Part shown: positions 1-1,477 of the stretch, piece by piece
How positions within the stretch are numbered: position 1 is the first letter of the stretch
Layout of the letters: every line of letters begins with the position of its first letter
Assembly (NCBI RefSeq): GCF_014062315.1
Contig: NZ_JACGLT010000009.1
Location: 74,975-138,974 of the forward strand
Reading direction: 5' to 3'
Length of the DNA stretch: 64,000 nucleotides
Source of the DNA: Gelidibacter maritimus
GTDB taxonomy: Bacteria > Bacteroidota > Bacteroidia > Flavobacteriales > Flavobacteriaceae
Position numbers and translations under genes: made by a program
The notes under the pieces: model-generated
The model's database searches: none
What the model was told of the DNA's origin: nothing
What the model saw: the letters and a program-made list of their open reading frames with translations, nothing else

Positions 1-437
1 CTCCGACGCTTCGGAGCTGGAGGCACCACCATCAATCCCGAAGTATCGGGACGGACATTCGTTCGGGTTTTTTGGTTTTAGCAGGTTTTTAATTGATTCC
101 TGTTTCGCGCAATGTACGATAAGATGGCCCCTGGCTCCTCCGACGCTTCGGAGCTGGAGGCACCACCATCAATCCCGAAGGGTCGGGACGGACATTCGTT
201 CGGGTTTTTTGGTTTTTAATTGGTTCCTATTTCGCGCAATGTACGATAAGATGGCCACTGGTTCCTCCGACGCTTCGGAGCTGGAGGCACCAAAATAATC
301 TCTGATCATCTTAATTGTTTCGAAACCAATTGTTTGTTCAGGTTTATTAGTTGTTTTACTTTCTTAGCTTAGCCTAAGTACACAGATTTACGAAGTGCCT
401 AATTGCTAATCTATTGATTGTATTAAATCCCAAACCT

Positions 438-722
438 ATGTCGCACAATCTATATATTATATACAGTAAAAGTCAAGACAAGTATTATGTAGGAGAAACT
501 ATTGACATTAACCTAAGGATAACGAAGCACAATAATCATAGCTATAAAGGAAGTTTCACGAAAATCGCAACGGATTGGAAGATTGTTTTAGACTATGAAT
601 GTTCAACAAAAGATGAAGCATTATTCTTAGAAAGATTTATTAAACGTATGAAAAGTAGAAAGTTTATTGAAAAGATTATTGAAAACAATCAAATTTTGAA
701 TGATATTCTCAACAAGCGATAA
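438..722 (+). CDS. Small GIY-YIG nuclease family protein, copy 1
   Basis: Predicted 94-residue single-domain GIY-YIG endonuclease-like protein. From the ATG at 438: IIY at 7-9 takes the GIY position, YVG at 17-19 the YIG position, R27 is the likely catalytic Arg, and E65 (in FLERFIKR) the likely metal-binding Glu. The C-terminus is basic. A TTG at 414 would add eight residues; I prefer 438 because MSHNLYIIYS is the usual start of this family. The family is related to the UvrC N-terminal nuclease but has no partner domain here. The gene lies inside a palindromic repeat unit and is duplicated 598 bp downstream. That layout suggests the protein moves or maintains the repeat, as RAYTs do for REPs, but this is inference. 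It could also be a degenerate homing-type enzyme. Confidence 0.82.
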   Translation: MSHNLYIIYSKSQDKYYVGETIDINLRITKHNNHSYKGSFTKIATDWKIVLDYECSTKDEALFLERFIKRMKSRKFIEKIIENNQILNDILNKR

Positions 723-1035
723 GATTCCCCTAGTTCCTCCGACGCTTCGGAGCTGGAGGCACCACCATCAATCCCGAAGGGTCGGGAAGGACATTTGTTC
801 GGGTTTTTTGGTTTTAATTGGTTCCTGTTTCGCGCAATGTACGATAGGATGTCCACTGGTTCCTCCGACGCTTCGTAGCTGGAGGCACCAAAATAATCTC
901 TGATCATCTTAATTGTTTCGAAACCAATTGTTTGTTCAGGTTTATTAGTTGTTTTACTTTCTTACCTTAGCCTAAGTACACAGATTTACGAAGTGCCTAA
1001 TTACTAATCTATTGATTGTATTAAATCCCAACCCT

Positions 1036-1320
1036 ATGTCGCACAATCTATATATTATATACAGTAAAAGTCAAGATAAGTATTATGTAGGAGAAACTAT
1101 TAACATTAACCTAAGGATAGCGAAGAACAATAATCATAGCTATAAAGGAAGTTTCACGAAAATCGCAACGGATTGGAAAATTGTTTTAGACTATGAATGT
1201 TCAACAAAAGATGAAGCGTTATTCTTAGAAAGATTTATTAAACGTATGAAAAGTAGAAAGTTTATTGATAAGATTATTGAAAACAATCAAATTTTGAATG
1301 ATATTCTCAACAAGCGATAA
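1036..1320 (+). CDS. Small GIY-YIG nuclease family protein, copy 2
   Basis: Duplicate of the gene at 438, shifted by exactly 598 bp, with only a handful of substitutions (D23N, T29A, H31N and E79D in the 94-residue numbering). The GIY/YIG motifs, R27 and E65 are kept. H31, within the R-x3-H-N stretch often seen in the family, becomes Asn, so this copy may be less active. The start was chosen at the ATG at 1036 for the same reason as copy 1; a TTG at 1012 is the alternative. Flanking sequence is duplicated with the gene, so the whole cassette was copied recently. Function is inferred from the fold motifs only. Confidence 0.8.
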   Translation: MSHNLYIIYSKSQDKYYVGETININLRIAKNNNHSYKGSFTKIATDWKIVLDYECSTKDEALFLERFIKRMKSRKFIDKIIENNQILNDILNKR

Positions 1321-1477
1321 GATCCCCCTGGTTCCTCCGACGCTTCGGAGCTGGAGGCACCACCATCAATCCCGAAGGATCGGGACGGACATTTGTTCGG
1401 TTTTTTGGTTTTAATTGACAGATACACACTACATTATTTTAGTGGAGACGCAATGCATTGCGACTCTAATTACATAT

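Follow-up and report, generated by a model that had tools for sequence, protein, structure and literature searches.

The window, that is, the whole stretch of 64,000 nucleotides from Gelidibacter maritimus that was analysed, starts at C70:74975 in the source genome and opens inside a tandem array. As the initial annotation had described, a 32-nt core occurs six times in this array (1-27, 133-164, 260-291, 732-763, 858-889 and 1330-1361; the copy at 1-27 is cut by the window start and the copy at 858-889 carries one mismatch), two open reading frames at 438-722 and 1036-1320 encode 94-aa GIY-YIG proteins that are 96% identical, and a 598-bp tandem duplication is present (203-502 compared with 801-1100, 96%). 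The description of the core as a palindrome holds for the inner 16 nt (CTCCGACGCTTCGGAG), which are perfectly palindromic, and not for the remainder, which is 3' sequence of tRNA-Phe. The hairpin pattern YYCCGANNNNTCGGRR occurs nine times in the window, every time within the array, and 0.01 occurrences are expected from shuffled sequences.

All parts of the array lie on the forward strand. Half-tRNA copy 1 (1-28), which is cut by the window start, consists of a hairpin (1-16) and the tRNA-Phe acceptor end CTGGAGGCACCA, and it leads into a copy of the tRNA-Phe downstream region with its terminator (29-79). Copies 2 (128-165, hairpin 138-153), 4 (727-764, hairpin 737-752) and 6 (1325-1362, hairpin 1335-1350) are likewise followed by a copy of tRNA-Phe's own terminator, at 166-216, 765-815 and 1363-1413, the last of which ends the array. 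In each of these terminator copies the 5' arm is swapped for a second hairpin of the same type (TCCCGA....TCGGGA), located at 36-51, 173-188, 772-787 and 1370-1385, respectively. Half-tRNA copies 3 (255-292, hairpin 265-280, no terminator) and 5 (853-890, hairpin 863-878 with one stem mismatch) run into the leader of a nuclease gene, which spans 293-437 before gene 1 (438-722) and is repeated before gene 2 (1036-1320). The flank beyond the array holds a transporter-like gene on the reverse strand (1478-2854), which we take to be of the MATE type. Among the ORFs of at least 40 aa that overlap the array none is of integrase size, and besides the GIY-YIG genes there are only frames shorter than 100 aa, lying over the repeats and the end of the array.

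Analysis of the 7 kb upstream of the window revealed an intact tRNA-Phe gene (anticodon GAA; L012:6738-6813; Rfam tRNA, 70.3 bits). The array lies directly 3' of this gene and begins upstream of the window: the tRNA is followed by its terminator, by one further half-copy and by a 50-N stretch (L012:6926-6975) that falls inside the array just before the window, and the number of units seen is a minimum. The 3' end of tRNA-Phe reads ...CCTGG TTC GATTC CTGG AGGCACCA and the core reads ...CCTGG TTC CTCCGACGCTTCGGAG CTGG AGGCACCA; that is, the core is the 3' end of tRNA-Phe in which the five bases GATTC on the T-loop side are replaced by the 16-nt hairpin. Each unit pairs a GIY-YIG gene, oriented like the tRNA, with a duplicate of the outward-facing tRNA half. 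In the duplicate half one tRNA loop is replaced by a hairpin, and the original tRNA is intact.

Empty sites were found in two genomes of the same genus (G004, L189; G007, L186), where tRNA-Phe and its terminator are directly followed by the flank that stands behind the array in the window, namely the end of the transporter-like gene and the stretch before it. At the same spot, a decayed half-copy in G002 and a truncated nuclease gene in G352 were seen by eye. The tRNA-Phe gene gave one match in 24 of 25 genomes, and a gene that is usually single-copy would offer a target with which the host cannot dispense. We looked among carriers for a resistant form of the tRNA-Phe gene and found none, the T-arm being identical in occupied and empty genomes: the half-copies have the loop replaced, while the intact tRNA-Phe keeps the T-arm of the empty genomes. 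In this the element differs from a classical homing allele, since the target at the intact tRNA-Phe is not made resistant, and the retention of the presumed site in the intact tRNA speaks against a simple homing allele.

The nuclease is a bare GIY-YIG domain (Pfam GIY-YIG, 1.7e-12), and the Pfam search found no DNA-binding domain in it. Residues Y6, Y17, G19, R27 and E65, presumably the positions of the GIY-YIG catalytic residues, are invariant among 22 homologous proteins, and the catalytic-type residues of gene 1 are intact. The fold model (pLDDT 95.8) has UPF0213 (1zg2), Slx1 and I-TevI as its nearest solved folds. Gene 2 encodes Asn at the nearly invariant His31 (window 1126-1128), and its product may be impaired. 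Between tandem copies the pooled pN/pS is 0.27, calculated from 34 changes in total over seven arrays in register, two of which are without any change (two further, out-of-register arrays were left out); with this ratio, the protein seems to be kept by selection.

Homologues of the protein were found at E<=1e-9 in 106 of 397 genomes of the family. Ninety loci were taken from these genomes, some of them sharing a genome, of which 30 were returned by the search (the window's included) and 60 were hand-picked down the match list regardless of tRNAs, among the matches listed. Another 24 loci came from named genomes, giving a total of 114 family loci; the two sets overlap in three pairs of identical Phe proteins, probably from the same genomes. 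An ARAGORN tRNA call lies within 700 bp of the gene in 80 of the 90 and 21 of the 24 loci, i.e. 101 of 114, and without exception the tRNA and the gene share a strand. Of the 101 calls, five fall inside arrays (two tRNA-Stop, one tRNA-SeC, one Val and one Asp) and probably correspond to half-copies, which leaves 96 of 114 loci adjacent to a tRNA. Nine of the 13 loci without a call were inspected by eye: tRNA pieces are present in seven (L129, L159, L176, L245, L264, L271 and L282), and none were seen in L174 and L250. At L159, L245 and L264 tRNA pieces stand on both sides of the nuclease gene and the sequence stretch examined shows no intact tRNA, which suggests displaced copies or lost tRNA genes.

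A search of the phylum with a 22-row alignment matched 113 of 345 genomes at E<=1e-12. Among the matches listed, a tRNA lies within 700 bp of the gene in 24 of 30 phylum loci, in every case on the gene's strand; the same holds for 19 of the 24 loci from previously unused genomes, and this set adds Gly, Thr and Pro(CGG) sites. Overall the family covers more than ten anticodon types, some of them seen once. No tRNA was found within 6 kb in any of the 20 control loci that carry UvrC-type or other large GIY-YIG genes. Judging from a tree of 94 proteins, the protein clades follow the tRNA isotype: the tree, a quick one with few columns and many open forks, requires 19 label changes compared with 60.7 after shuffling, and none of 200 shuffles was as low. 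The Phe, Leu and Pro(GGG) groups each fall on one side of a branch, as do the two Asp-upstream rows, and Phe takes a single change; the Asn-upstream rows are scattered (four changes; 34 of 500 shuffles were as low), and the two Asp-downstream rows fail to cluster. The recurrence of one enzyme family next to tRNA genes of many kinds suggests that it belongs to a very small selfish element for which tRNA genes are homing sites.

We also compiled a wider set of small GIY-YIG genes of any kind, which comprised at least 84 matches from 30 relatives with tandem copies and fragments counted. Among the 84 matches listed, a tRNA or tmRNA is found no more than 1 kb away in 20, always on the same strand, and 47 have a flanking repeat (tandem copies counted), compared with 1 of 44 control ORFs. 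The Rfam search near 20 other small GIY-YIG loci gave six matches, none to tRNA or rRNA. Small GIY-YIG genes of other kinds lie amid direct, often palindromic intergenic repeats without a tRNA, both in relatives and on C17 of the source genome (L020, L054, L057, L072 and L098). At L069 (G015:C21:98320-104935) a tmRNA gene is followed by two small GIY-YIG genes on the same strand. At L013:3153-3470, a tRNA-Pro locus, a GIY-YIG frame stops inside the 5' end of the tRNA, and a tRNA-Pro copy with several hairpins is located upstream. A weak match in the source genome was seen at C67:135708.

In the plain form, an intact tRNA and its terminator come first, then the nuclease gene, and last a hairpin-bearing half-copy and another terminator; between one and seven matches follow each other at a period of about 355-380 bp (598 bp in the window). 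An interrupted tRNA copy was detected on the far side of the gene in 60 of the 96 tRNA-adjacent loci (36 are without one), and in 57 of the 96 the interruption holds a perfect stem of at least 5 bp. When a tRNA of another isotype was used as control bait, 50 rounds gave a mean of 3.4 interrupted copies (maximum 7) and a mean of 2.5 hairpin-bearing copies (maximum 6). Exact tRNA pieces of at least 12 nt occur on the far side in 76 of 96 loci, compared with 3.2 in the control, and 20 loci have none. Exact pieces of at least 8 nt (87 of 96 loci) were discarded as a criterion that is too lax, a tRNA of another isotype yielding about 34 by chance. The pattern YYCCGAN{4,6}TCGGRR fits 45 of the 57 hairpins.

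Which loop is interrupted is often characteristic of the clade. The hairpin sits at tRNA base 57, in the T-loop, in 20 of 21 Phe loci; the interruption is found in the T-loop in five of five Leu loci, in the variable region in five of seven Asn loci with the gene downstream, in the D-loop in five of five Asn loci with the gene upstream, and in the anticodon loop in three of four Met loci, and the positions are mixed in Val, Arg and some Asn loci. The use of different loops by different clades speaks for distinct targets. Which part of the tRNA is copied depends on the side where the gene lies: with the gene 3' of the tRNA, the copy extends to the tRNA 3' end in 41 of 48 cases and in no case begins at the 5' end, and with the gene 5' of the tRNA, all 12 interrupted copies begin at the tRNA 5' end. 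On the inner side the copy extends about 10 nt beyond the hairpin (medians 10 and 11, from an exact-match scan with a floor of 8).

The left and right terminators of a locus have a mean similarity of 0.94 (19 loci), compared with 0.70 between loci, and are less similar in two of the 19 (L138, 0.57; window, 0.70). This likeness within loci suggests that the host's own tRNA end may have been duplicated, or that the copies were homogenised. The terminators were rejected as proof of donor versus host origin, as they are alike in most loci, which in-place duplication or homogenisation would also give. The 16-nt Phe hairpins comprise 13 distinct sequences, in which every stem pair (78 of 78) is preserved through changes at two pairs, and none of 2000 shuffles was as good (relatedness not controlled). 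Half-tRNA copies with a hairpin and with no nuclease gene within the short stretches seen were noted by eye at L225, L226 and L221; they comprise four tandem tRNA 5' halves, tandem tRNA-Asp 3' ends and one fMet piece. At L029 and L056, ARAGORN calls a tRNA-SeC beside a tRNA-Val element; this is probably a half-copy with a replaced anticodon arm, and an annotation hazard.

The array had been interpreted in the initial annotation as a GIY-YIG counterpart of RAYT/REP systems. The proposal fails for the core, a half-tRNA that is not dispersed, and finds support in the inner hairpin, which is dispersed and correlated with the gene. Since the core is a half-copy of the adjoining tRNA-Phe, the unit belongs to the tRNA site and is not a REP. 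A dispersed REP made of the 32-nt core was rejected: allowing up to three mismatches, the core occurs at five places genome-wide, all in the array, in a search that misses the truncated copy at 1-27 and the copy cut by the N stretch. The hairpin pattern CCCGAN{4,6}TCGGG has 53 copies in the source genome, a few of them natural rRNA helices by eye, compared with 2 for the reversed control pattern, and 14 of 15 hairpin sites examined lie outside ORFs of 100 aa.

The correlation that had been expected between palindrome number and the gene was found for the hairpin. Over the 397 family genomes the median is 14 hairpins in the 106 genomes with the gene and 3 in the 291 without it, where presence means a homologue at E<=1e-9 and the counts include hairpins inside elements. 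Of 48 within-genus contrasts, 39 are up, 8 are down and 1 is a tie (sign test, 5.5e-6). The reversed control pattern differs slightly between genomes with and without the gene (means of 2.20 and 1.64, p 0.003) and shows no difference within genera (p 0.51). Genomes with many cores and no gene, and homologues found mostly without palindromes, had been named as observations that would speak against the link, and the outcome for the hairpin is mixed: 20 of the 291 gene-less genomes have at least 25 hairpins, and 5 of the 106 gene-bearing genomes have two or fewer, while 57 of the 96 tRNA-adjacent homologues have a perfect hairpin in a half-tRNA copy. The link between palindrome and nuclease is partly supported and has a core of truth, though the unit that was named is a tRNA end. 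In a genome of the same genus, at L214-L217 and L219, the hairpin was seen by eye within other intergenic stem-loops, where it stands between their complementary arms.

Phages are already known to carry free-standing GIY-YIG homing endonucleases next to tRNAs. One of these enzymes, SegB of T-even phages, occurs together with tRNAs of many isotypes (PMC13096335). In phage T6 it cuts in tRNA genes with a preference for the motif RAWTSGAAC, and through recombination it gives rise to tandemly repeated tRNA segments, which catalytic mutants do not (PMC13096335). In our reading, the reverse complement of this motif, GTTCSAWTY, corresponds to the tRNA T-loop, and the Phe hairpin at base 57 would fall inside it. 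Both systems have a GIY-YIG nuclease beside tRNA genes, and the motif preferred by SegB is the T-loop that is replaced in the Phe half-copies; from this position of the hairpin we infer a loop-cutting nuclease. Here, in contrast to SegB, the genes are found in bacterial chromosomes, encode 94 aa and form isotype-specific clades, and the hairpin-interrupted outer half-tRNA copies are undescribed for segB in the available parts of PMC13096335. With free-standing GIY-YIG homing endonucleases in general, the window's protein shares intact catalytic-type residues; its gene stands free beside a specific tRNA, which is the putative target. The tblastn search with the nuclease protein P0001 gave no match in 50,697 phage records (E<=1e-3), and no relative was found in viral contigs by a search that reaches close relatives only. 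Phage carriers of the element were considered, and none were found in phage or viral collections.

The element was also compared with other systems. UPF0213/Slx1-type stand-alone proteins share the minimal GIY-YIG domain, the nearest solved structures being 1zg2 and Slx1, but the Slx1 family is strongly conserved with mostly vertical descent, according to PMC1564403, whereas the family described here is multicopy, patchy and bound to tRNAs. RAYTs are described with an inverted pair of REPs (PMC2817692). As in those systems, palindromes whose stems are kept by paired changes bracket the nuclease gene; dispersal across the genome is seen for the inner hairpin and not for the 32-nt core. In contrast to those systems, the enzyme is a GIY-YIG protein by Pfam and fold and not a tyrosine (HUH) transposase, and the repeats are direct half-tRNA copies, bound to a tRNA, and not two inverted REPs. 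Integrative elements at tRNA 3' ends duplicate the 3' end and leave the tRNA intact, as is the case here. They differ in that no ORF of integrase size is present here, the unit is about 370 bp long and tandem, the duplicate is interrupted by a hairpin, and the elements are found at tRNA 5' ends as well.

We consider it reasonably probable that the array consists of tandem copies of a minimal selfish element belonging to tRNA-Phe, whose free-standing nuclease would cut one loop of one tRNA gene. After the cut at the cognate loop, an element-bearing copy would serve as the template for repair, which would bring in the nuclease gene together with a fresh tRNA end and restore the tRNA. The old tRNA half would be pushed outward with a hairpin at the cut site and would be no longer cuttable; the hairpin would then both mark this site and protect it. 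If the restored tRNA gene were cut in turn and repaired from the neighbouring copy, tandem arrays would arise, as for SegB in phage T6. The presence of the element at the same site across genera could be partly due to old vertical inheritance with losses.

The same data can be read with the hairpin as the mobile unit, in a GIY-YIG counterpart of RAYT/REP in which the nuclease would have hairpin-forming DNA as its substrate (tRNA arms, terminators or the palindrome) and would insert the palindrome into loops or spread it there, the tRNA copies being a by-product. The dispersal of the hairpin (53 copies against 2 for the control) and its correlation with the gene favour this reading, as do the recurrence of the same type of palindrome (45 of 57) in the loops of quite different tRNAs, the palindromes seen by eye within non-tRNA stem-loops (L214-L217 and L219), and the other small GIY-YIG genes amid direct repeats, some palindromic (47 of the 84 listed against 1 of 44). 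We nevertheless regard it as unlikely, because the 32-nt core is restricted to the window's array, the repeats that flank the gene are direct and not inverted, 20 of 291 genomes have at least 25 hairpins without the gene, and the movement of a palindrome leaves the duplication of tRNA halves and its polarity unexplained.

Selection on RNA structure is a further possibility, with a nuclease that would act on tRNA or on its own transcript and hairpin-capped half-tRNA transcripts that would serve as decoys, guards or 3' stabilisers. The genes do lie on the strand of the tRNA, a half-tRNA and a terminator lie at their end in those Phe loci that were examined, and the stems of the 13 Phe hairpins covary at two pairs (78 of 78, relatedness not controlled). 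However, GIY-YIG enzymes are known mainly as DNA nucleases, tandem arrays with a tRNA-specific duplication are what DNA breakage and repair is expected to give, and the palindrome is dispersed away from tRNAs too, so that we find an RNA-level system quite unlikely. The reading that we favour least is that ordinary recombination duplicated sequence at tRNA ends passively and in tandem, and that a small UPF0213-like nuclease, unrelated in function, happens to be inherited there. It would fit with tRNA genes being conserved sites of recombination, with UPF0213 as the nearest solved relative and with the near-identity of copies within an array, but it would be very improbable given more than ten anticodon types with clades that follow them and always the same strand, the occurrence on either side of the tRNA with matching polarity, the hairpin at an often clade-typical loop, and the control loci of the same domain, which are without tRNA (0 of 20) and whose ORFs are rarely flanked by repeats (1 of 44).

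Returning to the selfish element bound to tRNA genes, a broader proposal, held tentatively and with somewhat less than even confidence, is that it may represent a separate class of mobile elements. Its members would be autonomous units of about 370 bp, each with a bare GIY-YIG nuclease dedicated to a single loop of a single tRNA gene, and would insert through duplication of a tRNA half, with the old cut site sealed by a hairpin. The same hairpin would be the genome-wide palindrome family, and the gene-less units of half-tRNA and hairpin would be non-autonomous partners, so that a homing endonuclease and a REP-like repeat would form one system across Bacteroidota. In the open-licence literature, among the matches listed, we found no papers that place GIY-YIG genes of bacterial chromosomes beside tRNA genes or link them with REPs, and none on chromosomal GIY-YIG units with hairpin-interrupted tRNA halves. 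There is a fair chance that the element deserves its own class.

The elements probably explain some annotation artefacts, since ARAGORN labels a few half-copies as tRNA-SeC or tRNA-Stop. They also link two questions, that of homing endonucleases outside phages and that of the origin of dispersed bacterial palindromes. The isotype-specific clades provide a natural set of small nucleases with different targets, which may show how a bare GIY-YIG domain gains specificity. If the proposed mechanism is true, few bacterial selfish genes that are self-sufficient would be smaller than these elements, which would have their fixed homes at essential tRNA genes and, in the hairpin, a built-in record of the cut site.
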